64,000 nt of DNA, from NCBI RefSeq assembly GCF_004138485.1, contig NZ_ML142848.1, positions 434,001 through 498,000 of the forward strand, given 5' to 3'. The notes under the pieces are model-generated. The model was not told the origin of the DNA. It saw nothing but the letters and a program-made list of their open reading frames with translations, and searched no databases. This stretch comes from Peristeroidobacter soli. Its GTDB lineage: Bacteria > Pseudomonadota > Gammaproteobacteria > Steroidobacterales > Steroidobacteraceae. The position numbers were made by a program, and so were the translations under genes. Below are positions 277 to 18,699 of this stretch, piece by piece. Within the stretch, counting starts at the first letter, position 1, and every line of letters starts with the position of its first letter.

Positions 277-591
277 CTACGAACCGGGAGAAGTGCAGGT
301 GCCGATCGCCTGGCCGAAGCGGGTCGGGAACGAGCTCTCGATGGAGGCTTCGTCACTGTGCCCGTTGCGCAAATCCGTCGCCACTTTGCGATCCTGCTCG
401 CTGAGACTCGACCAGACACAATCGCAGACGGCGGCCTCGTTCGAGAGATGATCGGAACGCAGAGTGAATTCGGGCAGCGGGTGCGCGCTACAAACGATCG
501 TCGCAGAGGTGGTTTCAGAAGTGGGAGGTGCGGCTCTCGGGGTACTGCAGCCGGTGCCTGCGAGAGCCAGAATCAGCAGGGAATATTTCAT
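277..591 (-). CDS. Small cysteine-containing lipoprotein downstream of peptide precursor copy A
   Basis: The 104-residue product starts with a lipoprotein signal peptide and lipobox (LALAGTGC, Cys at residue 15), so it should be lipidated and held in the envelope. The mature part has further cysteines (VCSAHP, VCDCVW and a C-terminal TC), which suggests disulfides in the periplasm. A CGGAG ribosome site lies about 8 nt before ATG 591. The gene follows precursor copy A in the same direction, separated only by a strong hairpin. It has no counterpart beside copy B. I do not recognise the family. Its position is typical of an immunity or accessory protein for a secreted peptide, but that is inference. 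Confidence 0.7.
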   Translation of the reverse strand: MKYSLLILALAGTGCSTPRAAPPTSETTSATIVCSAHPLPEFTLRSDHLSNEAAVCDCVWSSLSEQDRKVATDLRNGHSDEASIESSFPTRFGQAIGTCTSPGS

Positions 592-605
592 GGCTTGGCT
601 CCGAA

Positions 606-629
606 GTGGAGGCCCTTGCGGGCCTCCAC
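606..629 (-). terminator. Hairpin after precursor copy A; terminator or attenuator
   Basis: Read on the minus strand, a perfect 10-bp stem (GTGGAGGCCC with its complement) closes on a GCAA tetraloop 10 nt after the precursor stop codon. No clear U-tract follows. The CGGAG ribosome site of the lipoprotein gene comes shortly after it. It may end most transcripts, or stabilise a precursor mRNA while letting some read-through reach the lipoprotein gene. Confidence 0.6.
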
Positions 630-639
630 CAGCGTGCGC

Positions 640-903
640 TTACACGCGGACGAAATGATCCCAGTAGCTGTACTCGGTCTGGGTGCGCGTGCGCTTCCAG
701 CCTTCATAGGTCTGACGGGTCAGATAACCGTCGTGGAACGTCTGGCCGACATAGGAGCTGAACATCTGGGTGTAGCCGCTCCACGAGCCGGTGCTCACGA
801 AGGAGCTGCGCAGGTGCCAGTCGGCGCCGCCGGACAGTTCGGTCATCGACTTGCGATCCAGCGCCTGGGAGAGGTTGAGATCAGCGAGGTTCAACGTGGT
901 CAT
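640..903 (-). CDS. Double-glycine-leader secreted peptide precursor, copy A
   Basis: The 87-residue precursor has a 26-residue leader ending ELSGG, the site cut by C39 peptidases of bacteriocin ABC exporters. The 61-residue predicted mature peptide has no Cys or Pro, and it is rich in aromatics (4 Trp, 6 Tyr, 4 Phe) and Ser/Thr/Gly. The ATG at 903 has a GGAG ribosome site. The protein is identical to copy B at 3800-4063; the two coding sequences differ only at two synonymous sites. A sigma-54-type promoter lies at 970-985. The nearby C39 exporter is the likely export route. No lanthipeptide or radical-SAM enzyme lies nearby, so an unmodified bacteriocin-like or signalling peptide is plausible. 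The target is unknown. Confidence 0.85.
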   Translation of the reverse strand: MTTLNLADLNLSQALDRKSMTELSGGADWHLRSSFVSTGSWSGYTQMFSSYVGQTFHDGYLTRQTYEGWKRTRTQTEYSYWDHFVRV

Positions 904-969
904 GTCAGTATCTCCGAGTGGTTGAGGTTGCTATCGAAGCGCCGTTACGTTTGCGCTTGATCGAGGAAT

Positions 970-985
970 AGCAGGCGCCGTGCCA
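970..985 (-). promoter_or_regulatory. Sigma-54 (RpoN) type promoter of precursor copy A
   Basis: On the minus strand the sequence is TGGCAC-N5-CTGCT, against the consensus TGGCAC-N5-TTGCW. The invariant GG and GC have the required spacing. It lies 67 nt before the start codon, at the same distance as in copy B. A sigma-54 activator gene lies directly upstream at 1144-2418. Confidence 0.7.
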
Positions 986-1143
986 GCCGTGCCAACAGGC
1001 CGAAACTTTCTGGTAAGTGACTGACGGCAGATGAGAAATAGTTGATGGATCAAAAATCGGCGCCACTGCTTGCCGGTTCGAGGACCTGAGTTCGTTGGAG
1101 CAAAGCCAACGAAAATTCAGTGTCGTGTTGGATCGAAACCGAC

Positions 1144-2418
1144 TCAGACCGGGGCTGCGGGAGCTCCGCCAGCGGCGTGCGATTTCGCCGACTGACGCGC
1201 GCTGATGCCGTGCTTCTTGAGCAGCGTCTGCACGTGACTGCGATTCATGCCAATGTTCCTGGCGAGATCCGTCACGCGATAGTTCGCTTTGGCCAGGCAC
1301 TCCAGCAGATAGCTGCGCTCCGCTTCGTCACTGGCCTTGCGCTTGGCGTCGACCAGCGATGTCGCTGGCTCTACTTCGAGCTGTGCGGTCCGCTCCGGCA
1401 CTTTCGCACGCACGTTCTCCGGCAGATGCTCCAGATCCGCCGTCTCGGTCGCCAGGCACGAAATCCGAAAGATGATATTTCTCAGCTCGCGAATGTTTCC
1501 TGGATAGTCGTACGAGCTCAGGAAGCTGGTGAGCCGTCGCGACAGCTTCACGGGCTGGCGATTCAATCTCGACGAGGCTTCGTTCGAGAGATACTCGATC
1601 AGCACCGGAATTTCATCGCGCCGGTCACGCAGCGCCGGCAACGTCACTTGAATGATGCTGAGCCTGTAATAAAGATCCTCTCGGAATGTGCCGGCCTTGC
1701 ACATCTCGAGCAGATTCTTGTTGGTCGCCGCGACGATGCGCGCGTCGACACTGATGACCTGATCCGATCCGACCCGCTGGATCTCGTTGGACTGCAGGAC
1801 CCGTAGCAGCTTCACCTGCCCGATCAGCGGCAGCTCGCCGATCTCATCCAGAAAAATCGTCCCCCCGTTCGCCGCCTCGAACTTGCCGGCGCGATCCGTG
1901 CTCGCGCCGGTGAATGCGCCCCGCTTGTGTCCGAACAGCTCGGACTCGAGCAGGTTCTCTGGAATCGCGCCGCAGTTCACGGTGATGTACGGCCGATCGG
2001 CGCGATTGCCGTTCGCGTGGATGACTTTCGCCATCAACTCCTTACCCGTACCACTTTCGCCATCGACCAGCACTGGCAGGTCCGTGCGTGCAGCCTTCTC
2101 CGCGATCTCCAGCGCCTCGATGAGCCTCGGACTGTCGCCGAACACGCCGTCGAACTGAAAGTCACGTTCCAACAGCGCATGCCGTCGTTGGGCGACGCTC
2201 TGATTACGCGGCGCCGAGGTGCTGGCCTTGACGAAGCGCTCGGTGTGCGACAGGCGCAGCACCTCGTCGCGCATCGTCGTGCACTGATTCAGCAGCTTCT
2301 GGATCTGGGCCCGATCGAGAGTCTGCGCCCAACGCAAGGTCGAGCGCAGAATCTCGATCTTCTCCAGCAAGGCCGCGTACGAGATCGTCGCTTCGAGATT
2401 CGAGTCGACGGTTTTCAT
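1144..2418 (-). CDS. Sigma-54-dependent transcriptional activator (AAA+/Fis-type HTH)
   Basis: The 424-residue protein has a full AAA+ activator core: Walker A GESGTGKE (about 120-127), the GAFTGA loop that contacts sigma-54 (167-172), and Walker B TIFLDEI (about 187-193). A Fis-type helix-turn-helix lies near the C-terminus (VTDLARNIGMNRSHVQTLL). The first 90 or so residues are helical and match no receiver, GAF or PAS domain I can recognise, so the input signal is unclear. It starts 10 nt after the prolyl isomerase gene and probably shares its transcript. It lies between two peptide genes with sigma-54-type promoters, so it is the obvious candidate to switch them on. Confidence 0.9.
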   Translation of the reverse strand: MKTVDSNLEATISYAALLEKIEILRSTLRWAQTLDRAQIQKLLNQCTTMRDEVLRLSHTERFVKASTSAPRNQSVAQRRHALLERDFQFDGVFGDSPRLIEALEIAEKAARTDLPVLVDGESGTGKELMAKVIHANGNRADRPYITVNCGAIPENLLESELFGHKRGAFTGASTDRAGKFEAANGGTIFLDEIGELPLIGQVKLLRVLQSNEIQRVGSDQVISVDARIVAATNKNLLEMCKAGTFREDLYYRLSIIQVTLPALRDRRDEIPVLIEYLSNEASSRLNRQPVKLSRRLTSFLSSYDYPGNIRELRNIIFRISCLATETADLEHLPENVRAKVPERTAQLEVEPATSLVDAKRKASDEAERSYLLECLAKANYRVTDLARNIGMNRSHVQTLLKKHGISARQSAKSHAAGGAPAAPV

Positions 2419-2428
2419 CGTGGCGGCG

Positions 2429-3181
2429 TTACATCACTTCGAGCCGATGTTCGCTGGCCTGGGCCGCCAGCCATTGCTCTTTCAGCACGCGCCGGATCTC
2501 GGCCTTGGTCTCCTCATCCAGCACCGCGGGCCGTTTCTCGTTGACCATGAAGATCTCGAAGCACGTGCCGTCCGGCGAGGCAAAGGGGCCGATGATCTCG
2601 CCCTTCTGCGCATGGAACACCTTGGCTTCCACGTCACCACGCAACGCTCCTCGCAGCACACTGCCGATATGTCCGCCGTGGCCGCGCGTATCGGCGATGG
2701 AGTGCTCGTTCGCGAGCTCGGCGAACCGCTCCGGCTCATCGATCAGAATGGCCATGATCTCCTTGGCCTTGCCCGCCGAGTCCAGCACGATGTGACTCAC
2801 GTCGATAGTGTCGAACTGGGGTGAATTCAGGCGGAAGAACTGCTCGACCTTGTCGTCGGTCACCACGTGCTCCATCATTTTCTCGAAGCACAGGGTTTCG
2901 GTCACGTAGATCTCGTACTCCTCGGGCGTGACTCTCATGCTTTCCAGATAGCGCTTCATTTCCACGGCCCGATGCAATCCATTCACGCGGCGCAGCTGAT
3001 CCGAACGCTGCTGCACCGATTCCGGCGTGATCCGGACGCCGTGTTTCCTCGCCGAATGCACGGCCAGCTTCTCCTGGACGATATCATCGATCAGCCCGTC
3101 GAACCGGCCGCTCAACTTCAGCAGTTTGACGAAGCTGTCGGAGCTGATGATCTCGTCATTGATACGAATCAGATTGGTCAT
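2429..3181 (-). CDS. Parvulin-type (PpiC/SurA-like) peptidyl-prolyl isomerase, no signal peptide
   Basis: The 250-residue protein has a helical SurA/PrsA-like N-terminal part (1-120) and a parvulin domain (about 125-225) with SHIVLDSAGKAKEIM, FAELANEHSIADT, GGHIG and a GEIIGPFASPDG segment. Unlike PrsA or SurA it has no signal peptide or lipobox, so it should act in the cytoplasm, perhaps as a chaperone for precursor peptides. A GAGAGGAG ribosome site precedes ATG 3181. Related PpiC-like proteins are known from peptide-maturation clusters. The predicted mature peptide of copies A and B has no proline, so its client may be the third precursor-like protein, or it may act without isomerisation. 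Confidence 0.85.
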   Translation of the reverse strand: MTNLIRINDEIISSDSFVKLLKLSGRFDGLIDDIVQEKLAVHSARKHGVRITPESVQQRSDQLRRVNGLHRAVEMKRYLESMRVTPEEYEIYVTETLCFEKMMEHVVTDDKVEQFFRLNSPQFDTIDVSHIVLDSAGKAKEIMAILIDEPERFAELANEHSIADTRGHGGHIGSVLRGALRGDVEAKVFHAQKGEIIGPFASPDGTCFEIFMVNEKRPAVLDEETKAEIRRVLKEQWLAAQASEHRLEVM

Positions 3182-3288
3182 GACGAAGACTCCTCTCGAA
3201 ACAAAAGAAACCTCTTTGCTCAGGGAACATCGTTACTGTGATCCGTTCGTCCGCATTCGTCCAGGCTGCCGAAAGGGCATGAGAACTT

Positions 3289-3546
3289 TCATTCGCCCGA
3301 TTTCCAACGCTTGCCGTCCCGATTGATTCGACGTTGCAACGATTCGATCGGCAACGGACGAAGGTGCGCGGACCAGCGACCTGTTGCGGCGCGCAGACCG
3401 GTCGCACTCTTCGCTTGATTCATCAGAAAGAAGGCAGTCGATTGTCTCGGCCACAGGGGACGCGTGCCGAGCCCGACGATGGCGCGCATCGCTTCCCGGT
3501 CGAGCTCGATGCTGTCTTCAAGATCCGCGATGACCAGTTTGCTCAT
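3289..3546 (-). CDS. Third precursor-like peptide with leader related to copies A and B
   Basis: The 85-residue product starts MSKLVIADLEDSIELDREAM. Over the first 26 residues it matches the A/B leader at about 11 positions (M1, L4, A7, D8, L9, S12, L15, D16, R17, M20, G25). The leader ends IVGLG, not SGG, so it is unclear whether C39 can cut it. The rest is basic (many Arg and Lys) with four prolines and a short hydrophobic patch, and is unlike the A/B mature peptide. ATG 3546 has a GGAGAGA ribosome site; a longer upstream start lacks one. It probably heads an operon with the prolyl isomerase and activator genes (gap 107 nt). I see no sigma-54 promoter for it. Confidence 0.65.
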   Translation of the reverse strand: MSKLVIADLEDSIELDREAMRAIVGLGTRPLWPRQSTAFFLMNQAKSATGLRAATGRWSAHLRPLPIESLQRRINRDGKRWKSGE

Positions 3547-3717
3547 CGGTCTCTCCAGTAATGGGTTCGATCCAACATCGCGGCCTTTAATTGTTGGCCG
3601 TGACCCAACGAGCTCAGGCTGCCGAGCTCCTGGCGCGTCGCACCGATTTTTCATGACTCAACTATTTCCCAACTGACTTCAGCCACTTACCAGAAAGTTT
3701 CGGCCTGTTGGCACGGC

Positions 3718-3733
3718 TGGCACGGCGCCTGCT
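3718..3733 (+). promoter_or_regulatory. Sigma-54 (RpoN) type promoter of precursor copy B
   Basis: The sequence TGGCAC-N5-CTGCT has the invariant GG and GC at sigma-54 spacing. It lies 67 nt before ATG 3800, exactly as in copy A. A second TGGCACGG lies directly upstream, making a short direct repeat. The predicted transcript start gives a leader of about 55 nt. Confidence 0.7.
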
Positions 3734-3799
3734 ATTCCTCGATCAAGCGCCAACGCAACGGCGCTTCGATAGCAACCTCAACCACTCGGAGATACTGAC

Positions 3800-4063
3800 A
3801 TGACCACGTTGAACCTCGCCGATCTCAACCTCTCCCAGGCGCTGGATCGCAAGTCGATGACCGAACTGTCCGGCGGCGCCGACTGGCACCTGCGCAGCTC
3901 CTTCGTGAGCACCGGCTCGTGGAGCGGCTACACCCAGATGTTCAGCTCCTATGTCGGCCAGACGTTCCACGACGGTTATCTGACCCGTCAGACCTACGAA
4001 GGCTGGAAGCGCACGCGCACCCAGACCGAGTACAGCTACTGGGATCATTTCGTCCGCGTGTAA
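3800..4063 (+). CDS. Double-glycine-leader secreted peptide precursor, copy B
   Basis: The 87-residue protein is identical to copy A: leader of 26 residues ending ELSGG, then 61 residues without Cys or Pro and rich in Trp, Tyr and Phe, ending FVRV. A GGAG ribosome site lies 8 nt before ATG 3800 and a sigma-54-type promoter at 3718-3733. It converges on the exporter gene, with a strong hairpin between them. The presence of only synonymous changes between copies points to gene conversion or selection on the protein. Export through the C39 ABC transporter next door is very likely by family knowledge. Confidence 0.87.
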   Translation: MTTLNLADLNLSQALDRKSMTELSGGADWHLRSSFVSTGSWSGYTQMFSSYVGQTFHDGYLTRQTYEGWKRTRTQTEYSYWDHFVRV

Positions 4064-4083
4064 TCGCACGTTCTTCCCCCCGC

Positions 4084-4111
4084 AAGAGGAGGCCCGCAAA
4101 GGCCTCCTCTT
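4084..4111. terminator. Bidirectional terminator between precursor B and exporter gene
   Basis: An 11-bp perfect stem (AAGAGGAGGCC with its complement) closes on a CGCAAA loop and is followed by a T-rich stretch on the plus strand. It lies between the ends of two convergent genes and could serve both. It resembles the hairpin after copy A in position but not in sequence. Confidence 0.7.
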
Positions 4112-4121
4112 CTTTACGTCT

Positions 4122-7100
4122 CTAAGCAGCGCTGCTCATCATCTGCTTCTGCACCAGCTGGTGATACATTCCTTTGCGCTCGATCAGCTCACGATGCGCG
4201 CCCTCTTCGACGATGCTGCCGTTGTAGAGCACCAGGATCTTGTCCGCATTCATGATCGTGCTGAGCCGATGCGCGATCACGATCGACGTGCGCCCCCTCA
4301 GCACGTCCTGCATGTTCCGGAGAATGTTGCTCTCTGACTGGCTGTCGAGCGCCGACGTCGCCTCGTCCAGGATCAGGACGCGAGGATCGTGATAGAGCGC
4401 CCGGGCAATGCACAGACGCTGCATCTGTCCACCCGACAGGCCCATGCCTCGCTCACCGACGATCTGCTCGTAACCCAGCGGCATGGCGCTGATGAAGTTG
4501 TGAGCATCCGCCATCTTCGCGACCTCAACGACACGCCGTCGGTCCGGATTCTCTTCACCGGCGGCGATATTCTCAGCGACGGTGCCCGAGAACAGCAGAT
4601 TGTTCTGCATCACGTAGCCGAGCTGAGCGCGGTAGTACTCCTTCTCGACCAGATTCATGTCGTAGCCGTCGACGTAAATGGAACCCTCGGTCGGCGCGTA
4701 GAACCCGGCGACGAGCTTGGCCAGCGTGGTCTTGCCGGAGCCGCTTTGACCGACGATCGCGACCATCTGGCCCGACTCGATGGAGCAACGGATGTTCTCC
4801 AGCACGAAGCGGTTTTCCTTGCCGCCGTAACGGAAGAACACATTGTCGAAGCGAATATCGCCCTTCAGGCTGGGCAGCATGATGCGCGACTCGATGTCCT
4901 GAGGCTTCTGCTCCGGATCCAGATCCAGCACGTCGCCCAGCCGCTCCATCGCAACGCCCGTCTCCTGCAGCTGATCCCACAAGCCGATCAGCCCCATGAC
5001 CGGCGCCAGGGCGCTGCCCATCAACATGGTGAATGCGATCAGCTGACCGATGGTGAGCTGCTCATCCAGCACCAGGCTCGCGCCAATCCACAGAATCACG
5101 ACTGAACTGGCGGCACTGAGCATCTGACCGGTGAACCCCACCAGCAGATCGAAACGCTGCGCCCGATACTGCACATCCAGCGCCTTCGCGTAACGGCTTT
5201 CCCAGCGCATGCGCATCGGGCGTTCGATACCCATCGCCTTCACCGTCTCGGCACCGCTCAACGTCTCCATCAGCACCGACTCGGCATCCGTCGACGTCTC
5301 GAAAGAGCGCCGCGCGTACTGCTTGATTCTCGGCGTCGCCATCACTGTCAGCAGACCTATGGGAATGATGAAGGCTATCAGCAGCAACGACAGCTTGACG
5401 CTATAGAGGAACATGACGATGAAGTAGATGAACGCCATCAACGTATTCAGCAGCGTGCTCACGGTCGACTCGGTGAGGAAGTTGCGCACTTTCATGTTTT
5501 CCTGGAAGCGCGCGAAGATGTCGCCGGTCCGGCGTCGGTTGAAGAAATCGAGCGGCAACGACAGGGTGTGCCGGAAGAACTGCGAGATCATCTCGAAATC
5601 GAGATTGCGCCGGATGAAGTTCGCGAGGAAGCCCCGCATCAACGTGGTGAGACGCGTGAACACGTGCACGATGATCAAGCCGACGATCAGCACGTGCAGC
5701 AGTTGCAGATTCTGGTGAACCACGACCCGATCGAGGATGTTTTGAACGATGATCGGAGGTGCCACCCCCAACAGCTCGATCACCAGCGTCGCCATGGCGA
5801 CATAGCCGATGACGTGCTTGAACGGCGCGAGATAGTTGACGAATCGCATCCACGGCGATTGACCGGCACGCGACTGCGACAGATCGGCGCTGGGCGAGAA
5901 CAACAGACATGTGCCGGTCCAGCCCTTCTCGAAATCCGCCACCGTCATCCTGGCAAAACCTCGCGCCGGATCGGCAACCCACACATGCCGCCTGGATACG
6001 CCGTAGACCACGATGTAGTGGTATCCCTCCCAGTGGGCGATGAAGGGGAGCTCGAAGCCGAGCATCGATTCGAAAGTGCACTTCATGCCGCGAGCCGCAA
6101 AGCCCAGCGATTCACCCACACGCGCGAGGCTATCGAGCGTCGCCCCCTCCGTAGTGACGTTCGCCATCTCGCGCAACTTGCCGAGCGTGATCGCGATCCC
6201 GTAATGCTTGCTGATCATCGCGAGGCAGGCGGCGCCGCAGTCGGCCTCCTCCGCCTGTTCGACCAGCTCGAAGCGCGGGATGACTTTCTCTCCAGCACCA
6301 GTACGACCGGCGATATCGAGCAACAGGCGTCGACCTCTGCGTTCGGCCAACTGCTTCTGCCGCTCCAGCTCGCGCTCCGCCGCCTTGACTCTGCTTTCCA
6401 GAAATTCCTTCATCTGTGGCTTGCGTTCGAGCAACAACCGCAAGGTGTCCGTGGGAATGACCAGCAACAACGCATCCGTTTCCGCAACCACCGAGGCCGG
6501 TTGCTCACCAGGATTGAGTGCGGCGGACTCACCGAAGAACTCACCCTGGCGCGCGAGGCCAATCGGATACTGCGTGCCCTCTTCCTCGCGGGTGATCTTT
6601 ACTTTGCCCTGACGCACGACATAGAGACGCCGGTCGTCCGAAGACCCCTGGGTGAGAATCGTGGCGCCCGCCTCGACACGCTTGACGCCCAGGCTGCGCA
6701 CGAGCTGGGCCAGCTCGGCTTGATCTACTTTGCCCTTGAGCTCGAACAGGCGACTCACCACGCCGCCCGCCATCCGAATCGCGGTGTAACTGGAGAGGAA
6801 GGCCGCAGCCTCCTTGTTGCTGGCAAGCACCGGCGCGATGGCCTCGCGTGACAGGAACAGAATTTCCGTCTTCGTCGACGCGCGCGCCGATGCATCGTGG
6901 ACATGCTCACGCAGGGCGCCGATCTCAGCGAGAACGTCACCCGCCTTGCGCACGCCCTGACTGACCTCCTTGCCGCTCTCTTCGCTGAACAGCCGGACCG
7001 TTCCGGATCGAATCACATACAAGCCGGCATTCTTCTGGCCGGCTTCGAACACCGCTTCGCCGAATTCGTACCAGCGCGAGTCCACAAAGGTCGCGAGCTG

Positions 7101-7202
7101 CTGCAGGTCGGCGGCACTGAATGCGGAGAACATCTCGACCGTGGCGAGAAATTCAACCACCGCATCGTCGGCCAGTGAGCGAAGTTCTTTCATGAGGGTC
7201 AT
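4122..7202 (-). CDS. Peptidase C39-containing ABC exporter with two cNMP-binding-like domains
   Basis: The 1026-residue protein would cut and export double-glycine-leader peptides across the inner membrane. Domains in order: two cyclic-nucleotide-binding-like beta-rolls (about 20-140 and 155-270), a C39 peptidase with Cys322 (EEADCGAACLAM), His395 (WEGYHYIVVYG) and Asp411 (ADPARG), a six-helix membrane domain (about 455-740), and an ATPase with Walker A GQSGSGKTT at 818, LSGGQ at 922 and Walker B LILDEATSALD near 943. The beta-rolls lack the Arg of the usual cAMP phosphate cassette (GESAALNPGEQPAS in the second), so they may sense something else or only make contacts. The start overlaps the HlyD stop by 4 nt (ATGA). 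Confidence 0.95.
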   Translation of the reverse strand: MTLMKELRSLADDAVVEFLATVEMFSAFSAADLQQLATFVDSRWYEFGEAVFEAGQKNAGLYVIRSGTVRLFSEESGKEVSQGVRKAGDVLAEIGALREHVHDASARASTKTEILFLSREAIAPVLASNKEAAAFLSSYTAIRMAGGVVSRLFELKGKVDQAELAQLVRSLGVKRVEAGATILTQGSSDDRRLYVVRQGKVKITREEEGTQYPIGLARQGEFFGESAALNPGEQPASVVAETDALLLVIPTDTLRLLLERKPQMKEFLESRVKAAERELERQKQLAERRGRRLLLDIAGRTGAGEKVIPRFELVEQAEEADCGAACLAMISKHYGIAITLGKLREMANVTTEGATLDSLARVGESLGFAARGMKCTFESMLGFELPFIAHWEGYHYIVVYGVSRRHVWVADPARGFARMTVADFEKGWTGTCLLFSPSADLSQSRAGQSPWMRFVNYLAPFKHVIGYVAMATLVIELLGVAPPIIVQNILDRVVVHQNLQLLHVLIVGLIIVHVFTRLTTLMRGFLANFIRRNLDFEMISQFFRHTLSLPLDFFNRRRTGDIFARFQENMKVRNFLTESTVSTLLNTLMAFIYFIVMFLYSVKLSLLLIAFIIPIGLLTVMATPRIKQYARRSFETSTDAESVLMETLSGAETVKAMGIERPMRMRWESRYAKALDVQYRAQRFDLLVGFTGQMLSAASSVVILWIGASLVLDEQLTIGQLIAFTMLMGSALAPVMGLIGLWDQLQETGVAMERLGDVLDLDPEQKPQDIESRIMLPSLKGDIRFDNVFFRYGGKENRFVLENIRCSIESGQMVAIVGQSGSGKTTLAKLVAGFYAPTEGSIYVDGYDMNLVEKEYYRAQLGYVMQNNLLFSGTVAENIAAGEENPDRRRVVEVAKMADAHNFISAMPLGYEQIVGERGMGLSGGQMQRLCIARALYHDPRVLILDEATSALDSQSESNILRNMQDVLRGRTSIVIAHRLSTIMNADKILVLYNGSIVEEGAHRELIERKGMYHQLVQKQMMSSAA

Positions 7203-8578
7203 CCGACGGAGTTTCTGAAAGGATCGATGGCGAGATCGATCAGGCGCCGGCTGTCGACGACGATCTCGACCTTGGCGGCCATGCCGTAGCGAATCGGCGT
7301 CGCCACGTTATTGATGGTGAAGTGGTCGCTCTGCAGCCCGACCCGCGCCTTGTAGACGATCTGCTTGGTGTCGCGGTTGGGGCTCGAGGCCGGCGAGATA
7401 TGTTCCAGTTCGCCCGTCAGCACACCGTAGCGCTGATACGGAAACGCATTCACTTTGACTCGAACCGGCATGCCGGGCTTCAGGAAGGCCCGGTCGCGTT
7501 CGTTGATCTCGATCTCCAGGACCTTGCGAGCGCCTTTGGGTGCGATCAGGACCACCGGTGTTTTCTCGTCGACCTGCGCGCCAACGTCGGTGAAGGTCAC
7601 GGTGGTAACGACACCGTCCATGGGAGCGCGGATCCGCAGGAAATTATCCTCGTCGATATCCTCGTAGCTGATGCGCGAGGCTGCCTTGGACTTGGCGCGC
7701 GCCAGACGCACATCCGTCTCGGCCTGCTCCTCTTCCTGCGTCACACGCAGCACCATGTTGTCGTACTGGGCCTGAGTCGCGAGCAGGTCTTGGGATTTCT
7801 TTTGCAACTCCTGTTTCTTCTTGTCGTAGTCCTGCATCAACGACACTTCGAACTCGCCCAGCTCGCTTTCCGCCAGCTTGTAGTCGAGGGTCTTTTCGCG
7901 CAGGAAGCCGCGCTTCTCTTCCACTTGATCCCTGGACAGGCCGCCGTTGCCCGACGAATTGAACAAGCGCTCGTGCTGCTCCAACACGCGCTGCGCCTGA
8001 TCGCGCTCGGCGCCGGCCTTGGCGAGCTTGGCGCGAGCCTTCTCCAATTTCAGCTGCTGCTCTTCCGCGAGCTTCTTGACGCTCTCGGCGACGCGCCAGT
8101 CGTTGTCGCGCTCGTCGGCGGCAATCTTCTCCTTGAGTGCCGCGATCTCTTTCTCCATCGCTTTTTTCTTGGTCGGAAACATTTCGTAGCCGCGTTCGGC
8201 GGCCGCGAGATGCACCGATGCCTGCGTCGCTTGCCCCGCCAGCTCGATGGCACTGGGAGAATCGATCCGCGCCACCACGTCGCCCTTCTGGATGGGCATG
8301 CCTTCGGTCACATAGACATTGACCAGCTCGCCCTTGATGGGCAGATACACGCCCTGCTGCTCGAGCTCGGGCTTCACCATGCCCGTGCTTTCCACGACCA
8401 CGTCGGACTTGCCGATGAAAGACCACAGCACGGCCGCGATCAGCAGCCCGAAGAACACCAGGATGGTGCCGCGAATCAGTCGTGACGGCTGATCCGTCAC
8501 GATGGCGACGCCTTCCGGACCGTGCTCCTCGAAGAACCGATTCAGTCCTTTTTTGGATCGGTAGTAGACTGTACCCAT
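7199..8578 (-). CDS. HlyD-family periplasmic adaptor of type I secretion
   Basis: The 459-residue protein has a short cytoplasmic N-terminus, one membrane helix (about 37-55, TILVFFGLLIAAVLWSF), a lipoyl half-motif, a long charged coiled coil (about 110-300), and a C-terminal lipoyl/beta-barrel part with LRIRAPMDGVVTTVTF. It would bridge the C39 ABC exporter and the outer-membrane channel. Its start lies inside the end of the FHA gene (37-nt overlap) and its stop overlaps the ABC start, so translation of the three is coupled. The start sequence MGTVYYRSKKGLNRFF fits a membrane-fusion protein with no signal peptide. Confidence 0.93.
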   Translation of the reverse strand: MGTVYYRSKKGLNRFFEEHGPEGVAIVTDQPSRLIRGTILVFFGLLIAAVLWSFIGKSDVVVESTGMVKPELEQQGVYLPIKGELVNVYVTEGMPIQKGDVVARIDSPSAIELAGQATQASVHLAAAERGYEMFPTKKKAMEKEIAALKEKIAADERDNDWRVAESVKKLAEEQQLKLEKARAKLAKAGAERDQAQRVLEQHERLFNSSGNGGLSRDQVEEKRGFLREKTLDYKLAESELGEFEVSLMQDYDKKKQELQKKSQDLLATQAQYDNMVLRVTQEEEQAETDVRLARAKSKAASRISYEDIDEDNFLRIRAPMDGVVTTVTFTDVGAQVDEKTPVVLIAPKGARKVLEIEINERDRAFLKPGMPVRVKVNAFPYQRYGVLTGELEHISPASSPNRDTKQIVYKARVGLQSDHFTINNVATPIRYGMAAKVEIVVDSRRLIDLAIDPFRNSVG

Positions 8579-11102: not shown

Positions 11103-12563
11103 TCACTTCACCGTCTTGGAGTCGGCGACTTCCCGCATGCCCGGCCGCTCGGCCTCCCAACCTCCGCCCAGCGCCTTGTAGAGCGTCACGGTGTCGGTGA
11201 GCAGTTGCTCATAGGTCGAGAGAATCTGCTGCTGAGCGCCGAGCAGACTGCGCTCGGTGTCGAACACTTCCAGCTGCGACACCAGCCCTTCCCGCAAACG
11301 GGCATCCTGGACATTGCGAACGACCTGCAGATCGGCGACCTGCGCTTCGAGCTGCTTGATCTGCTCGCGCCGGGAATTCAGATTGACCATCGCAATCTCC
11401 ACTTCCTCGTACGCGCCCAGGACCGTCTTTCGATATTCCTCGCGCGAGATCGCCAGATCCGCCTCGTTGAGCTTCACATCCATCTTCAGATCGCGATCGA
11501 ACAATCCGGCCCATGATGCCGCCAATCCAAAGGTCCAGGTATTGATCACTGTCGCGGTGAAGCTCTGCCCCGTCTTCGCCGCGCCGGTCAGAGAGAACGT
11601 CGGCAGCCGCGCCAACCTCGCCTTGCCGACCAGATGATGGGCTGCCAGCACGTCGTACTCGGCCTTCAGCACATCGGGACGCCGCGACAGGACGTCGGCG
11701 GGCAATACCTCCGGCACTTCGAGGATGCGCACGCTGTCTCTCAAGTTGCCGACAGGCACGGACAGCTCACCCGCCGGCACACCGACCAGCGTCGCGAGCT
11801 TCAGCTCAGCTTCGGCGCGCCCCCGTTGCAAGTCGAGCAACTGGGTCTGCAGGTTCGCGACCTCCGCCTTCTGCGACCGGATCTTGGTTTCCGGCACCAT
11901 GCCTTCCTTGTGCTGGGCGTAATAGATATCCAGCAACTCTTCGGCCTGCTTCTTCGAATCCAGTTGCTGAACGACCTGTTCGTCGAACTGACGGATCTGG
12001 AAGTAACGTTCCGCGACGCTCGCGATGAGTGTGAGCTGCGCCGCCCGCCAGTCCATTTCGGTGGCCTGATAGCGCGCATCGGCCACCTGCATCTCCTTGC
12101 GAATCTTGCCCCAGAGGTCCAGCTCCCAGGTCAGCGCGGCACCGAGCGATTCGGTCTCGCGCGTGGTCTTGACCGCTGCGTTGTTACTTTTGCCACGAGC
12201 GATCGCATCCGCCGGCGCCAGCGCCACTTTCGGAGTGGCGCTGAGCCTGTCCTTACCGAGCTGTACGCCCGCCTTGTCCAGGCGCAGCGCCGCGATCCGC
12301 ATGTCGAGGCCTTGATCGATGGCCCGCTGAATGAGCTGGATCAGATAAGGATCGCCGAAGCCGTGCCACCAATCGGGCAGAATGACTTCGGAAGCGGTGA
12401 GCTCGCGGCCTTCGAGCTGCGACCATTGTGGTTTGTCGGGAACCTCGGGGCGCTTGTAGTCGGGACCCTGGAGGGTGCTGCAACCCGCGACCAGTATCGT
12501 GATCGCTGCAAGCGTCAGCGCTCGAATCCTTTCGACGCGATTGAGCGGCCCTGGATGGTTCAC
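11103..12563 (-). CDS. Outer-membrane efflux lipoprotein, TolC/NodT family
   Basis: From GTG 12563 the product has a signal peptide and lipobox (ILVAGCS), then PDYKRPEVP, typical of NodT/OprM-like channels, and two long helical repeats (QLTLIASVAERYFQIRQ; SRRPDVLKAEYDVLAAHHLVGKARLARLPTFSLTG). It is about 486 residues, normal for the family. I chose GTG 12563 because a GGGAGA ribosome site lies before it and because upstream ATG codons would bury the signal peptide. It heads the exporter operon: channel, FHA protein, HlyD, ABC. It likely completes the export path through the outer membrane. Confidence 0.92.
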   Translation of the reverse strand: MNHPGPLNRVERIRALTLAAITILVAGCSTLQGPDYKRPEVPDKPQWSQLEGRELTASEVILPDWWHGFGDPYLIQLIQRAIDQGLDMRIAALRLDKAGVQLGKDRLSATPKVALAPADAIARGKSNNAAVKTTRETESLGAALTWELDLWGKIRKEMQVADARYQATEMDWRAAQLTLIASVAERYFQIRQFDEQVVQQLDSKKQAEELLDIYYAQHKEGMVPETKIRSQKAEVANLQTQLLDLQRGRAEAELKLATLVGVPAGELSVPVGNLRDSVRILEVPEVLPADVLSRRPDVLKAEYDVLAAHHLVGKARLARLPTFSLTGAAKTGQSFTATVINTWTFGLAASWAGLFDRDLKMDVKLNEADLAISREEYRKTVLGAYEEVEIAMVNLNSRREQIKQLEAQVADLQVVRNVQDARLREGLVSQLEVFDTERSLLGAQQQILSTYEQLLTDTVTLYKALGGGWEAERPGMREVADSKTVK

Positions 12564-12745: not shown

Positions 12746-12751
12746 GGCCCC

Positions 12752-14449
12752 ATGCACGAGCTGAGCAATGAACTCGGACGCTTCATCAGCGGCGCAATCG
12801 ATCTGGATCAGTTGCGCGCCGTGTTTCGTGGCTATCTCAATCAGCATCCGCAAGAGCGGGAATCGATCTCACGCTGGTTGCGAAACACCGTCGAGGAAGG
12901 CCGGCTGTCGGCGACCGTCTGGCTCACCTTGAGAGATCTGTTCGATCCGCCGGCGGCGACGCTGGAATCACCGCGCAGTGCAATGCAATCGAAGGCGACC
13001 GTGCTCGCCCGCGGCCAGGCGCAGCCGCCGCTGTTCGAACCCGATCCGGAAGTGGCGTGCGAAACGCTGGTTCCGAACATGGTCGTGAAAGAACGATTCC
13101 TGCTGGTGGAGCGCCTGGGTCGCGGCGGCATGGGACAAGTGTTCAAGGCACTCGACCGGCGCCGCCAGGAAGCGCACGACCGGCAGCCCTACATCGCGCT
13201 GAAAGTATTGAATCGGGAAGTCAGCGCACATCCCGAGTCGTTTATGGCGTTGCAGCGCGAGGCTCGTCGCGCCAGCACCCTTGCCCATCCGAATGTGGTC
13301 ACGGTTTATGACTTCGACCGCGACGGCTCACGTATCTATATGACGATGGAATATCTGGAGGGCCAGGGCCTCGATGAGTTCATCGACGCGCGCTGTAGCG
13401 ACGGGCTGCCGCTCGCCGAGGTCTTGCCGATCATTCGCGGGGTGGCGATGGCGCTGGAGTACGGCCATCAGAAACGCATCGTCCATTGCGATCTCAAGCC
13501 CGGCAACATCTTCGTCTGCAACGACGGCACGGTGAAGGTGCTCGACTTCGGCATCGCCCGATTGATCCAATCCACCGATACCCGTAGCGATCAGACCCTT
13601 TTCGATCCGGCGTTGGTGCTGCATGGACTGACTCCAGCTTATGCGTCGTTGGAGATGTGGAAACAGGCCGCGCCCGATCCGCGCGACGACATTTACGCGC
13701 TGGCGTGCGTCACCTACGAATTGCTGAGCGGACGCCACCCTTTCGACCGGCAATCCGCCAAGATCGTCAATGAGCGCAAGCTGACGCCGAAGCGCATCCC
13801 ATCGCTCACGCGCGATCAATGGGAGGGCTTGAAACAGGGGCTGGCGCTGAACCGCGAAGATCGAACCCCCAGTGTCGGTGCTTTTCTCGGGGCATTCACG
13901 CCGCAGAGTCGCTTGAAGAAATATGCCCTGCCCGGAGCAGTCGCTGGATTGCTGGTCGCCGTGGGCGCGGTGGCAGTGGGCGCGCGTTACTATCGAGTGG
14001 CAGTGGAAGATTCAACGATGGAAGTCCTGCAATGTGCGCAGATTCCCAAGCCTGCGATCACGAATGCTCAGCAGCCGAGGCCAGCACTGACCGCCGAGCA
14101 GCAGCAGGAGATCGATGACCATATCGCGCTGGCCCGGGATTATATGCTCGACGCGACGCCGGCCACGCGCGTCGAGGATCTCAAATACATTCTCAGTGAC
14201 GGGCCGAACAGCGTGACGGACATTCTGACCGCGGTCCTCAAGATGGATCCGTCACAGCGGGACGCCCTGCAATTGCAAACGGATGTGGCAAACGTCTACG
14301 CAGAACGGGCACGCTCTCTGGCAAACGAGCGCCGCGTGACCGAGGCGCTCGACTTGATCCGCTATGGCCGGCAGGTACTGCCGTCGAGCCAGGAGTTGCT
14401 CCGGCTCGAACAGAGCTTCTGCCGGATGGATGCGCTAGCCCATAACTAG
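12752..14449 (+). CDS. Membrane-anchored Ser/Thr protein kinase (PknB-like)
   Basis: The 565-residue protein has an unrecognised N-terminal helical part (1-110), then a complete Hanks-type kinase: glycine loop GRGGMG (123-128), Lys151, Glu170, catalytic loop HCDLKPGN with Asp247, and DFG at 265-267. One membrane helix follows (391-412), then about 150 residues with PITNAQQPRPALTAEQQQEI and a helical region, probably periplasmic. It is divergent from the exporter operon whose FHA protein could bind its phosphorylated targets. Its end overlaps the convergent barrel gene by 4 nt. The start lacks a ribosome site and the message may be leaderless. Confidence 0.93.
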   Translation: MHELSNELGRFISGAIDLDQLRAVFRGYLNQHPQERESISRWLRNTVEEGRLSATVWLTLRDLFDPPAATLESPRSAMQSKATVLARGQAQPPLFEPDPEVACETLVPNMVVKERFLLVERLGRGGMGQVFKALDRRRQEAHDRQPYIALKVLNREVSAHPESFMALQREARRASTLAHPNVVTVYDFDRDGSRIYMTMEYLEGQGLDEFIDARCSDGLPLAEVLPIIRGVAMALEYGHQKRIVHCDLKPGNIFVCNDGTVKVLDFGIARLIQSTDTRSDQTLFDPALVLHGLTPAYASLEMWKQAAPDPRDDIYALACVTYELLSGRHPFDRQSAKIVNERKLTPKRIPSLTRDQWEGLKQGLALNREDRTPSVGAFLGAFTPQSRLKKYALPGAVAGLLVAVGAVAVGARYYRVAVEDSTMEVLQCAQIPKPAITNAQQPRPALTAEQQQEIDDHIALARDYMLDATPATRVEDLKYILSDGPNSVTDILTAVLKMDPSQRDALQLQTDVANVYAERARSLANERRVTEALDLIRYGRQVLPSSQELLRLEQSFCRMDALAHN

Positions 14450-15894
14450 AACTGTCCGCGCAGACCGGCGGCAATCGAATTGCCGCTGACGTTCGACGTT
14501 CCCAGCAACGCCTCATACACCAGGTAAGCCTGCAGACGCCGCGGGAACACCGCTGACAGTCCGATGCTGGCAACGCCGAAATCCGCGTCGACCTGGTCGG
14601 TCAGCATGCTGAAGCACGAGATGCTGCAGGAAAAGTTCTTCGGGTCCGACGCACCCAGTGCCAACGAATCCTCGAGTACGTACTTGGCTCGAATCGTACG
14701 CGCACTGTCCTCGAACTCGTGGTGCCACTCGGCCCGCAGGCTCGGCACCAGGACACCGAAGTCGCGACTGATGGGCCGGGACAGAGCAAGGCCGACGATG
14801 GACCGCGTCGACTTGATGGTCTGGTCGTCGTAGCGCAAAGCCAGGCCGCCGCCGGCTTGATCCGTTTCGCTATAGCCATCGACGTCGACATCGCGATAGC
14901 TGCCGCTCAGCGAAGGCGTGAGATCCCAACCGCCGAGGTGAAAGTCATAACCGACCGTGAGGCCCAGCGCGATGTAGCTACCGTCGGGGCTGCCGGTCAT
15001 CGTCCGCACGGCGCCACAACTCGGGTTACAAGCCGCATTGGCCGAATCGTAGACGACGCGTCGAGAAACATCCGACGACAGCGAGCCATAGGTACCAATG
15101 CCGCTCACCGTCCATCGTTCGCCGAAGTAGCCGCCGAACACCGAGCCGCTGACTCCCTTGACTTCCACGTCGCCGCCACTGACGAACACCGCATGATCGA
15201 AGTCGGCCTTATAGTTGTCGTAGCCGAGGGAGAAGCCGAGAACGCCGGAGCCGAAGTTGTAGTCGGCACCCGTCGTCACACTCACCGAATCGTAGTCAAA
15301 GGCGTCGACGGCGACCGTCTGGTCCTGATCGCCGAAGCCATAACTGCTCTCGACGAACCAGCCCCATTTCTTGCTCTCGGCCGACAGCGCTTGCTCATCG
15401 GACGAGGCGCCTCCGCCGAAGCGCTGCCTGGCGGTGCCCATTCGCAACGCGGTCAATCGACCGCCGATGTTCGAGAACTGCCCCGACGATACTTGAGTGG
15501 ACATGGTGCCTTGTGCGGCAAGCTCCTCGCCGGACACCTGTTGAACGGCCGCCAGCAGCTGACTGCGGTCGCTGTATCCCAGGTTACGACCGGTACCGGC
15601 CGGAATGCCTTGAAAAACGCGAGCCGTCTCCACCATTTCGTTACAACGGGCGAACAGATCCTGCTTGGCGCCTGTCAGTCGCAATCCCCCCTCCGCCGCC
15701 AACGATGTGCACATGCCTTGCACGGCATAGCCCGCCTGCTGCTGCAAGCCGGTCGCGGCACTGCGCGGGTCATTGACGAATAACGAGAGCGCACCGGTTT
15801 GACTCGCTGTCTGTGCCTGCGTGACGGTCGCGCAAGCGCCGGCGGCAGCGATCGCACAGCACGCCATCGTTCTCGTTGCCAGTTTTGTATTCAT
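14446..15894 (-). CDS. Secreted protein with C-terminal autotransporter-type beta-barrel
   Basis: The 482-residue protein has a signal peptide ending TVTQAQ and a small N-terminal part (about 30-180) with two Cys. The rest is alternating beta-strand with many Gly and aromatics (WGWFVESSYGFGDQ, GADYNFGSGVLGFSLGYDNY) and ends in Phe (GLRGQF), the outer-membrane insertion signal. The barrel resembles autotransporter domains, but the passenger is very short, so it may be a plain porin-like barrel. It lies 30 nt behind the caspase-like gene on the same strand and is probably co-transcribed. A link to the peptide exporter is inferred from position only. Confidence 0.8.
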   Translation of the reverse strand: MNTKLATRTMACCAIAAAGACATVTQAQTASQTGALSLFVNDPRSAATGLQQQAGYAVQGMCTSLAAEGGLRLTGAKQDLFARCNEMVETARVFQGIPAGTGRNLGYSDRSQLLAAVQQVSGEELAAQGTMSTQVSSGQFSNIGGRLTALRMGTARQRFGGGASSDEQALSAESKKWGWFVESSYGFGDQDQTVAVDAFDYDSVSVTTGADYNFGSGVLGFSLGYDNYKADFDHAVFVSGGDVEVKGVSGSVFGGYFGERWTVSGIGTYGSLSSDVSRRVVYDSANAACNPSCGAVRTMTGSPDGSYIALGLTVGYDFHLGGWDLTPSLSGSYRDVDVDGYSETDQAGGGLALRYDDQTIKSTRSIVGLALSRPISRDFGVLVPSLRAEWHHEFEDSARTIRAKYVLEDSLALGASDPKNFSCSISCFSMLTDQVDADFGVASIGLSAVFPRRLQAYLVYEALLGTSNVSGNSIAAGLRGQF

Positions 15895-15924
15895 CGTCGG
15901 CGTCTCCCTGGTCTTGTAGGATGG

Positions 15925-18699
15925 TCAATAATTCAGTGCGGCGACTTTCACCGGCTCGGCCACCGGCACAAAAAAGAAATCGCCGATATCGTGATTGGCG
16001 TCTTGCAAGGTCGAATACGTCGGCCGCTGTCGCTGGCCGTTCTGTCCGACCTGGACGGGTTGCGCGAGCATCCGACCGCTGAGCTCATGCGACAGCATCT
16101 CGCCGCTCATGACGTTGTCGTTCTGGCGCAGCACCTGGATGAAATAACGGGCGAACACGGAATGATTGCCATCGCCCGAGCTGTCCGCGACCGGTGTGAC
16201 TTCGCCTGAAGTCAGCACCATGCGCGCCCGACGATTCCATTGAACGCGCAGCCGGGTTTCGTTCAGGCCACGGCCGATCGTCGTGGTCTTCGGATGAGTG
16301 ATGGCGCCGGAGAAGCACGAGTCCGCCACCAGCAGCACGTGCTTGGCGTTCATTTCCTTGATCTTGGCGCGAATGTGATCCGCTTCGAGCCAGCCCGCAT
16401 GCGTGTCGCGGTCGGCTTCGACCCCCAGCCAGAACGCCCGACCCGACGTGGCGTCTACATCGCCATGGCCGGCGTAATAGATAAGTAGGTTGTCCTGGGG
16501 CGTCAGCGTACGTTTGGCGTCATGTAACGCCACCATGATCTGTTCGCGCGTGGCATCGAGCAGCAATTGCACCTGGAAGCCATAGCGCTCCTTCAACAGC
16601 TGCGCGATCTCCTTCGCGTCATTTGCCGGCGTGTCCAGCGACTCCATGTAGTGATAGAGGCTGTTGCCAATGACGATGGCGTGATAGTTCCCACTACTGC
16701 TATTGCGCAGCTCGCCCAGCGACAACTGCACCGATGCCGGCCGACTGTCGACCGAGCGCATCTTGCCCATGGCCTGCGTCGGTGGAACCTGAGCGCTCGC
16801 CAGGACCGTGCCTTTATCGGCGGGTTTGCCGGTCGACAGCGTCTGGGCCACCAGCGCATCGAAGCGCTTCGACTGTTCCTGCAAGCGCTCATTGAGGCTG
16901 GCGATCTGGCCGTCCTTCGCCCTCAAATCCTGTTGACGCGCTTCCAGGTCCTTTCTCAGGAAGGCGATCTGCATCTCGCTGGCCTGGCGGTTGGTCGACA
17001 GCTGACGCTGCAGCTCATCGCGTGCCTGGGCCAGCTGTGCCATGTCGGTGGCTTTCTCCGTCTGCAGCTGGTCGAGCCGTTCGCGCTGCTCGTTGAGCTT
17101 CTGCTGTGCCATTCGTAACGACGCGCGTGCTCGCGCCGCTTCATCGGCCGCGCCGCCCAGATCCTTGTCGCGCTGTTGACTCAGCCGTTGCACTTCCGAG
17201 CGCAACGAATCAGTTTCGGAGCTCAACGCGGTCAACCGCCGCTGCTTCTCCTGGAGCTCACCGTTACGGGCCGCCATTTGCCCTTCGAACTCGCGCATGA
17301 GCGCGGCTTTATCCTGCTTCGCCAGCGTGCGCAGCGATGCAATTTCCTGCTCCCGCTGTTTGATCTGCTTCTGCTGATCGTCCAGCTGCGAACGTAAGGA
17401 ATTCACGCTCGCCTGCTTGTCCGTGTCCGCCGACTTCGCGGCGGCCTTGGCGGCATCGACCTGCGCCCGGCTCGCTTCCGCCAGCGCCTTTTCGAGCGAG
17501 GCCGCGCGTAGTTTTTGACGATCCAAGTCTCGCTCGCGAGCCGCGAGCATCGCAGTCGCCTGATCCTTCGATTTCTCGGCGGCGCGCTCGACCTCCTCCC
17601 GCTCGGTCACCAACTGGTCCACCTCGGCGCGGTACTGAGTGCGCAAGTCGGCGAGCTCTTGCTCCGACCTGAACAGCCGCTGGTCAGCTTGCGACAGACG
17701 AGCCGTCAGTTCCTGGTTCTTCGCGCGCTCGCCGGTCAGCAGCTCATTGAGCTCCATACTGGACGCCTGTGACTGCGCCATGCGATTCGACAGTTGCGTC
17801 TGCTGCTGCGTGAGCTGAGTGTTGAGCGCATTCATCTTGTCACGCGCCGCGCTCAACTCACTTTCCTTGGCGGTCAATGCGTTGCGCAACTCCGCAACCT
17901 TCGATCCATCCCCTTGACCTTGCCTGGCCGCGGCCAACTGCTCACGCAGATCGAGCGCAGCGGATTCGGATTTCGCGAGTTGGGCTCGCGCCTGAAAGGC
18001 GGCATTCGTCGTGTCCGACAGCTGTGCTCGTAATGTCTGCAGCTCGGCATTGGAGGCGTCGAGTTGCTCACTCAAAGCGGCCACTTGTCTGGCGCCTTCC
18101 TCTTCCGCTTCAGAGATCTTCCAGGCGTAGTCGAGCTCGTCGCCCAGGCCCGCGGCCTTGCGCTGCAGGTTGAGTGCGAGCATGGGATCTCTCTTGACGC
18201 CCAGACCCTGCTCGTACAGATAGCCAAGCTCCTGGATCGCCGGTGAATAATTCTGATCGGCCGCGCGCTGATACCAAGTCGCCGCGACGGCGGGATCGCT
18301 CTCTACGCCGCCCATGCCGTTCGCATAGATTCGGGCGACATAGTATTGAGCTTCCGGTTCGCCCGCCTTCGCGAGCGGCATCCAGCGCTCGATGGACAGT
18401 GTGCCGCTCGAGAGATCGCCGATGGTGTACTCGCCACCGCGGGCGCGACAGTCGACTGCCGACAATCTCACCAGGCGACCGGGCGTTAGATAAGAGCGCA
18501 TGCCGCCGAGCTTCTGCAGCTTTCCAGGCAGCTGACAGTCGACGACGATCGCATCTTCCAGATTGGCCGCGGCAATGCGGCTGCGTTCTTCTGTTTCCGA
18601 ATTTTTTTCGGCCGCGAGTGGTGCCCCACTTGCTACCACGAGAGTACCGACACCGAGTGCGAGGAACGCGCGCCGAACGCGCACAGCGAATGTTGTCAT
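15925..18699 (-). CDS. Exported caspase-like (peptidase C14) protein with Sel1 repeats and long coiled coil
   Basis: From ATG 18699 (GGGGAG ribosome site 8 nt upstream) the 924-residue protein has a signal peptide (LALGVGTLVVASGAPLAA), Sel1-like repeats (about 100-190: GEPEAQYYVARIYANG, SPAIQELGYLYEQG), a coiled coil of about 400 residues rich in Gln, Glu and Arg, and a C-terminal caspase domain. The catalytic pair is present: His745 in YYAGHGD and Cys795 in ADSCFSG. Caspase-like proteases of this type cut after basic residues in known family members, and the A/B mature peptide carries a KRTR stretch; any link is speculation. It lies upstream of the barrel gene, in an apparent two-gene operon. 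Confidence 0.9.
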   Translation of the reverse strand: MTTFAVRVRRAFLALGVGTLVVASGAPLAAEKNSETEERSRIAAANLEDAIVVDCQLPGKLQKLGGMRSYLTPGRLVRLSAVDCRARGGEYTIGDLSSGTLSIERWMPLAKAGEPEAQYYVARIYANGMGGVESDPAVAATWYQRAADQNYSPAIQELGYLYEQGLGVKRDPMLALNLQRKAAGLGDELDYAWKISEAEEEGARQVAALSEQLDASNAELQTLRAQLSDTTNAAFQARAQLAKSESAALDLREQLAAARQGQGDGSKVAELRNALTAKESELSAARDKMNALNTQLTQQQTQLSNRMAQSQASSMELNELLTGERAKNQELTARLSQADQRLFRSEQELADLRTQYRAEVDQLVTEREEVERAAEKSKDQATAMLAARERDLDRQKLRAASLEKALAEASRAQVDAAKAAAKSADTDKQASVNSLRSQLDDQQKQIKQREQEIASLRTLAKQDKAALMREFEGQMAARNGELQEKQRRLTALSSETDSLRSEVQRLSQQRDKDLGGAADEAARARASLRMAQQKLNEQRERLDQLQTEKATDMAQLAQARDELQRQLSTNRQASEMQIAFLRKDLEARQQDLRAKDGQIASLNERLQEQSKRFDALVAQTLSTGKPADKGTVLASAQVPPTQAMGKMRSVDSRPASVQLSLGELRNSSSGNYHAIVIGNSLYHYMESLDTPANDAKEIAQLLKERYGFQVQLLLDATREQIMVALHDAKRTLTPQDNLLIYYAGHGDVDATSGRAFWLGVEADRDTHAGWLEADHIRAKIKEMNAKHVLLVADSCFSGAITHPKTTTIGRGLNETRLRVQWNRRARMVLTSGEVTPVADSSGDGNHSVFARYFIQVLRQNDNVMSGEMLSHELSGRMLAQPVQVGQNGQRQRPTYSTLQDANHDIGDFFFVPVAEPVKVAALNY

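Follow-up and report, generated by a model that had tools for sequence, protein, structure and literature searches.

The long-type C39/HlyD/SurA clusters of cyanobacteria (groups I, II and VI) combine an exporter with an N-terminal nucleotide-binding-type domain (CAP_ED), a C39 peptidase domain and an ABC transporter with HlyD, the rotamase SurA and double-glycine precursors (PMC3140520). The system discussed here lies in a stretch of 64,000 nucleotides of Peristeroidobacter soli (positions 434,001 to 498,000 of contig NZ_ML142848.1, assembly GCF_004138485.1), which we call the window and in whose coordinates the window features are given. It combines an exporter of this kind with small double-glycine precursors, a sigma-54 activator, a PpiC-like protein and a double-FHA membrane protein. 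Judged by sequence, the exporter, which has an N-terminal nucleotide-type domain and is accompanied by a rotamase protein, is of the cyanobacterial long type. It differs in having two cNMP-type (cyclic-nucleotide-type) domains, in adjoining genes for an FHA protein and an activator, and in its proteobacterial hosts; FHA goes unmentioned in PMC3140520. The best reading of the locus is a variant of the long-type C39 exporter to which a phospho-switch like that of type VI secretion has been added and whose cargo is under a sigma-54 switch. We consider it fairly probable that this is a type I export system dedicated to small double-glycine proteins, with sigma-54-driven cargo, phosphorylation control and a role at the cell surface or in the matrix.

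In Synechococcus elongatus, the C39 exporter PteB is needed for the efficient export of small double-glycine proteins, the EbfG proteins; HlyD and an isomerase are not mentioned in that report (PMC4997328). EbfG1-3 gave signs of amyloid and were tied to biofilm (PMC9981879), which we count as a precedent for a surface or matrix role. HetC has the same order of cNMP, C39 and ABC domains, but it has one cNMP domain where the window exporter has two, its substrate is unknown and, by that paper's account, no double-glycine precursor lies near hetC (PMC10986499). The Fap amyloid system of Pseudomonas also needs a C39 peptidase, there for the export of an N/Q-containing amyloid, but FapD is periplasmic and free-standing and the outer-membrane exporter is FapF, whereas here C39 is fused to the ABC transporter (PMC5557850). 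In the threonine phosphorylation pathway of type VI secretion, a kinase (PpkA) and an FHA reader (Fha) control a secretion machine (PMC3953482). The PP2C phosphatase PppA belongs to that pathway, and PP2C genes also lie beside the exporters of many relatives. By analogy, the control layer of our system resembles type VI regulation, with the difference that here the FHA and kinase genes adjoin a type I exporter. Among the matches listed in our search of the open-access literature, there was no description of this combination of genes. It is possible, and we put it forward tentatively, that the locus represents a not yet described type I secretion class in beta- and gammaproteobacteria, in which the type VI kit (FHA, kinase, PP2C) and a sigma-54 cargo switch have been placed on a cNMP-C39 exporter that lays down bursts of matrix or amyloid proteins on cue.

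Parts in the window were called from the list of open reading frames together with Pfam and NCBIfam scans, and all those named in a preliminary description of this DNA were recovered in their places. The exporter genes run leftward (12563 to 4122) in the order TolC/NodT, FHA, HlyD, C39-ABC, all on the minus strand. The outer-membrane channel has a lipoprotein-like start (11103..12563; TIGR01845, 265.7 bits with a cut-off of 210.05). The FHA protein (8542..11088) has two FHA stretches, a single transmembrane-like stretch at 348-366 of the protein and then an all-helical domain. It is followed by the HlyD-type periplasmic adaptor (7199..8578; Pfam and NCBIfam scans) and the C39 peptidase ABC exporter (4122..7202; C39 7e-39), which has two N-terminal cNMP-type domains and the residues C322, H395 and D411. 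The hallmarks of a peptidase-containing ABC transporter, namely C39 Cys, His and Asp fused to an ABC transporter, HlyD, a TolC-type channel and nearby double-glycine substrates, are all found here. Across relatives, the catalytic Cys and His are present in 82 of 83 alignment rows and the Asp in 83 of 83. Further to the left, the C39-ABC gene is followed by the convergent gene of precursor B, then by those for a basic leader peptide and for the PpiC-like protein, and finally by the genes of the sigma-54 activator and of precursor A. The PpiC/SurA-like protein (2429..3181, minus strand; PF00639 6e-11) has no transmembrane-like stretch. The activator (1144..2418, minus strand; PF00158 2e-70) is an AAA+ protein with GAFTGA and a helix-turn-helix, and there is no receiver domain among its Pfam matches. 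Two other assignments were rejected: NHLP bacteriocin export (TIGR03796, 574 bits with a cut-off of 853.3) and the peptide maturation PpiC protein (TIGR04500, 62.6 bits with a cut-off of 180). A second C39 ABC exporter is encoded 4 kb past the end of the window (L044:4065-7279); it has 32% identity, the match starting at the C39 domain, and a weak HlyD match. In Halioglobus, a second C39-family match lies near the edge of the locus (L051:108-2384).

The distribution of these genes was examined in one genome per species with a cNMP-C39 alignment, using the best 80 of 90 confirmed loci; leaving out five distant ones (L120-L124) gives 75 close loci. Counts are from per-family profiles, C39 being present in 75/75 by construction of the query, and absences were counted with flanks of at most 10 kb, contig ends falling inside some loci. 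TolC, FHA, PpiC and the activator are each found in 67 of the 75 loci (TolC by tblastn and by profile alike), HlyD in 68 and cargo genes in 60. Because Caballeronia-like and Paraburkholderia loci make up 35 of the 75, we also counted by 34 hand-set groups, which include the window; at least one further group (L047) is from the window's own genus. In these terms TolC and FHA occur in 29 groups, HlyD in 30, PpiC and the activator in 27 and cargo in 19. The usual order, on one strand, is TolC-FHA-HlyD-PpiC-C39-activator. The hosts are nearly all beta- and gammaproteobacterial, with Desulfonema and Desulfatirhabdium in addition. Counting the genome under study, the cNMP-C39 protein is present in 5/150 genomes of the family (E <=4e-117, the next match being at 8e-24) and in 3/369 genomes spread over the class; it is present in 4/14 genomes of the genus. 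The system is therefore rare and patchy. S. gossypii has the whole set in the same gene order, plus a second precursor past the caspase gene. Identities there are 89% for C39, 87% for the activator, 84% for HlyD, 82% for PpiC and TolC, 81% for the caspase, 77% for the kinase, 76% for the third leader, 73% for the barrel, 65-70% for FHA and 53% for the precursor, which is diverging faster than the exporter. An annotated plasmid record has no features annotated at the locus. Taken together, the sequence comparison supports a conserved gene set and not a chance neighbourhood.

The FHA domains point to a reader of phosphorylated threonine. In 66 rows, the His, Asn and Ser that we take to be the phosphothreonine-binding positions are kept in 63, 50 and 57 rows for domain 1 and in all 66 each for domain 2. 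In 66 loci the protein has a hydrophobic stretch whose hydropathy peaks at 1.55-3.03, with 265-504 residues behind it, and for the window protein AlphaFold predicts an all-helical fold past the membrane stretch (predicted local distance difference test [pLDDT] 91.8; alignment of 30 sequences, the window plus 29 relatives). Foldseek gave this model no PDB match at E <=0.001 (best 0.08, TM 0.15). The assignment as the type VI FHA protein TagH was rejected (TIGR03354, 58.3 bits with a cut-off of 120.25). The membrane Ser/Thr kinase is encoded on the opposite, plus strand (12752..14449) and has a transmembrane-like stretch at 393 of the protein; catalytic residues are present, with HCD replacing HRD, as in 17/20 kinase rows. 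PP2C genes are found in 46/75 close loci (13/34 groups) and kinase genes in 20/75, compared with 5 PP2C matches in the whole 9.37 Mb of the genome under study. The presence of PP2C in 46/75 loci makes phospho-regulation more likely. In Noviherbaspirillum, a MORN-repeat kinase gene lies beside PP2C and cargo genes (L119:14359-17364), with FHA, HlyD and TolC missing nearby.

Beyond the kinase gene lie, both on the minus strand, an autotransporter-type outer-membrane barrel (14446..15894; PF03797 3.5e-41) and a protein with Sel1 repeats, a coiled coil and a caspase domain (15925..18699), which has a His/Cys pair and a hydrophobic N terminus and is probably exported. The most serious alternative, although still an unlikely one, is that the kinase, barrel and caspase genes are neighbours without a link to the system and that the true system consists only of exporter, FHA, PpiC, activator and cargo. 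The caspase occurs in 25 of the 75 loci by a separate profile, 20 of these being of the Caballeronia-like type, and the barrel family in 5; by groups, the kinase is found in 8/34 and the caspase in 5/34; these figures, like the kinase count, favor unrelated neighbours. On the other hand, relatives of the kinase (best segments with 48-57% identity) adjoin the system in Paraburkholderia, Trinickia and Massilia, the window's Sel1-caspase architecture recurs in the Pfam matches of a Thiotrichales metagenome-assembled genome (MAG; L089), and the genome under study has only 5 caspase-domain matches in its 9.37 Mb. The expectation in the preliminary description that FHA, kinase and caspase genes would be conserved next to the exporter was thus borne out for FHA and in part for kinase and caspase, which are recurrent yet not universal. 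The presence of PP2C, caspase and kinase depends on the lineage, and the distribution suggests that barrel and caspase are lineage-specific accessories. The caspase His and Cys are kept in 30/30 alignment rows (four seeds entered twice, one short match left out). The only Caballeronia-like caspase scanned with Pfam (L061:2-1600), near the exporter, is fused to a formylglycine-generating-enzyme domain. Partial views come from L071, where the caspase is present and its start lies outside the examined DNA, from L051 (Halioglobus), with a partial match, and from L117 (Parahaliea), where the Sel1 part is visible and the end lies outside the examined DNA.

The cargo forms a family defined by its leader. 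Precursor A (640..903, minus strand) has 87 amino acids, a leader ending in ELSGG and a mature part of 61 amino acids of which 23% are aromatic. Precursor B (3800..4063) encodes an identical protein, its gene having two third-position differences. The duplication had been reported before, and it stands with one correction: the second gene is on the plus strand, within an inverted repeat. The third related leader reported with them is present as well (3289..3549, minus strand; leader profile 7e-10), its junction being GLG and not GG; this basic companion has an isoelectric point of 12.0 past the junction. A profile of the 26 leader residues (by eye M..L.I.DL....ELDR.AM..V.GG), trained on the same loci against which it was searched, finds 192 peptides in 64/82 related records, with no match in 118 kb of unrelated loci, in window positions 26.5-64 kb or in shuffled segments. 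The junction is GG in 177, GA in 12, GL in 2 (the third leaders of the window and of S. gossypii) and GS in 1. The 185 distinct mature parts have 29-86 residues (median 66), and a single locus can have as many as eight of the genes. Their Asn content is raised 4.1-fold and Glu is at 0.22-fold; they are also poor in Arg, Lys, Leu and Cys. The median Asn plus Gln fraction is 0.19 compared with 0.069, and 144/185 exceed 0.15. Most relatives' cargo is therefore, by composition, Asn/Gln-rich and charge-poor, as amyloid matrix proteins are. A second kind of cargo, short and basic, is found again in several groups; the window's third leader belongs to it. Cargo of Steroidobacter could be aligned with that of Competibacter, W-S-G as well as Tyr, His, Arg and Gln positions being invariant; sequence clustering placed the two in separate clusters. 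On another contig of the genome under study, a third, near-identical precursor copy lies between rhomboid and pseudouridine synthase genes (G000:C4:781511-781771; L149:9512-9772). Compared with precursor A, it has 14 synonymous and 1 nonsynonymous codon changes (proportions of synonymous and nonsynonymous differences, pS 0.243 and pN 0.005; pN/pS ~0.02), which indicates that the precursor sequence is strongly constrained. In 19 kb at this copy, no further member of the set is present; the large neighbouring genes that were tested are those for rhomboid, pseudouridine synthase and a TonB receptor.

Class II microcins classically have C39/HlyD/TolC exporters together with double-glycine leaders. 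This speaks for a second alternative, a microcin-like bacteriocin system in which double-glycine peptides kill competitors and the signaling parts time the attack, as do the short basic companion peptides and one cargo peptide of Desulfatirhabdium that touches leader models for bacteriocins and for ribosomally synthesized and post-translationally modified peptides (RiPPs), below their cut-offs. We regard it as quite improbable. The near-identical copies are under strong purifying selection, and the cargo of most relatives is N/Q-rich with little charge. No conserved immunity candidate was seen with the cargo among the large neighbouring genes and the part of the small open reading frames that was covered: the small lipoprotein at 277-591 is unmatched in related loci, and the third copy lies apart from the other genes of the set. 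When ten cargo peptides were scanned with NCBIfam and Pfam models, no score exceeded a cut-off. In the Desulfatirhabdium MAG, L102:6671-7048 encodes two Cys/Tyr-rich double-glycine peptides, of which the one that was scanned showed the sub-cut-off likeness to RiPP/bacteriocin leader models.

The link between sigma-54 and the system lies at the cargo genes. We scored -24/-12 elements over 13 positions, with GG and GC obligatory, and called an element strong at >=11 within 250 nucleotides (nt) upstream; 189 cargo genes were scored, as 3 of the 192 had too little upstream DNA. Precursor A has the element CTGGCACGGCGCCTGCT (970..986, minus strand) and precursor B has its own (3717..3733, plus strand), each scoring 12/13; among the three sites of at least 11 in the 64-kb window, these are the only two at 12, and the third genomic copy carries the same element. 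A strong element is found at 97/189 cargo genes, compared with 30/2490 random 250-nt stretches and 25/840 non-cargo genes (>=150 aa) of the same loci. In 96 of the 97 cases it lies 55-115 nt from the leader start set by the profile, and 17/21 groups and 54/63 loci have at least one. The 500 nt upstream of the first TolC or FHA gene contain a site in only 4/66 loci. The earlier claim of sigma-54 control is thus backed by promoter elements and can be refined, in that the sites are at cargo genes and rarely before the first exporter gene. GAFTGA is kept in 43/48 activator rows. By sequence, these loci have both features of a sigma-54 regulon, namely -24/-12 elements in front of cargo genes and an AAA+ activator with GAFTGA. 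The 21 short basic cargo genes caught by motif all lack a strong element (scores 5-9).

In the cNMP-type domains, pocket columns 102/103 are mostly His/Glu and column 234 is Gln in 75/83 rows; the Arg of the cyclic AMP (cAMP) type was not seen at the position that we presume for this motif, in an alignment made by hand. The nucleotide-like ligand suggested in the preliminary description may exist, and one other than cAMP has a precedent in HetC: its cNMP domain, which is required in vivo, binds guanosine tetraphosphate (ppGpp) in vitro, cAMP giving no significant protection (PMC10986499). The alternative built on this precedent is HetC-like developmental or cell-cell signaling, in which the peptides would act as signals once exported and a ppGpp-like ligand of the cNMP-type domains would be the gate. 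The shared domain order favors it, but we consider it very unlikely, as cargo genes numbering up to eight at one locus and coding for 29-86 residues past the junction are much for a signal and no receptor gene was noticed, although no search was aimed at receptors.

For the dedicated export system that we prefer, the following course may be proposed. Sigma-54 promoters would transcribe the cargo genes (A, B and the third copy), most likely through the co-encoded activator, and the PpiC-like protein would keep the precursors export-competent in the cytoplasm. The C39 domain, whose catalytic residues are in place, is predicted to cut after the double glycine, and the ABC part to pump the mature peptide through HlyD and TolC/NodT. 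The double-FHA protein could read phosphothreonine inside the cell and touch the channel via its helical outer domain, and the kinase and, in relatives, PP2C would then turn assembly or export on or off in the manner of PpkA and Fha in type VI secretion. The cargo may build or coat the cell surface or the matrix of biofilms; in many relatives it would be amyloid-like, and here an aromatic-rich variant. If this is correct, threonine-phosphorylation control is a portable switch that is not special to type VI secretion. The analysis yields about 190 small proteins as candidates for secretion, together with an exporter, promoter elements and regulators. Many are from named, cultured soil bacteria, so the question of gating is directly testable. 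Double-glycine peptides of proteobacteria are usually classed as bacteriocins; here their export is linked to possible matrix or amyloid proteins.

Several observations weigh against this proposal. The window locus itself is without PP2C; the kinase was not found in 55/75 loci and PP2C not in 29/75, and 21/75 have none of kinase, PP2C and caspase in the DNA examined, which argues against a universal set. FHA and TolC are missing from eight loci (all five of Massilia and Noviherbaspirillum, L048, and two on short contigs, L102 and L107), and six lack both activator and PpiC; four of these six end within about 0.7 kb of the C39 gene, while L049 and L050 do not. The mature peptide of the window is aromatic-rich and has 4 Asn plus Gln in 61 residues, so the composition argument does not cover the window's own cargo, and its AlphaFold model (pLDDT 54) is too weak for use. 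No strong sigma-54 element was found at 92/189 cargo genes, some of which may occupy the second place in an operon. A strict sigma-54 pattern matched 42 times in four genomes of the genus, compared with 42 for its reversed control, so that lone genomic matches mean little and it is position that carries the evidence. The putative pairing of activator and promoters goes by gene neighborhood alone. Outside the Caballeronia-like and Paraburkholderia loci, 32/88 cargo genes have a strong element, and because of this share we hold the proposal slightly less firmly.

The inverted repeat that contains precursors A and B has arms of 434 nt (633-1066 and 3637-4070) that are 96% alike as complements, each with a promoter element and a precursor gene, and the arms flank the activator, PpiC and third leader genes; inversion or gene conversion could occur between them. 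No tandem repeats were found in window positions 1-19000. Hairpin-like sequences that by eye resemble terminators lie 3' of precursor A (603..634) and of precursor B (4081..4112). The small lipoprotein gene at 277-591 is probably not a part of the system, because tblastn found no match in S. gossypii, in the other Steroidobacter-group stretches examined or in the 80 related loci. Further along the window, genes for a GH31 glycosidase, a tryptophan-halogenase-like protein and a TonB receptor stand in a row (19313-26171), perhaps as a sugar-use locus, and a selenocysteine tRNA gene (tRNA-Sec) is found at 56328-56421.

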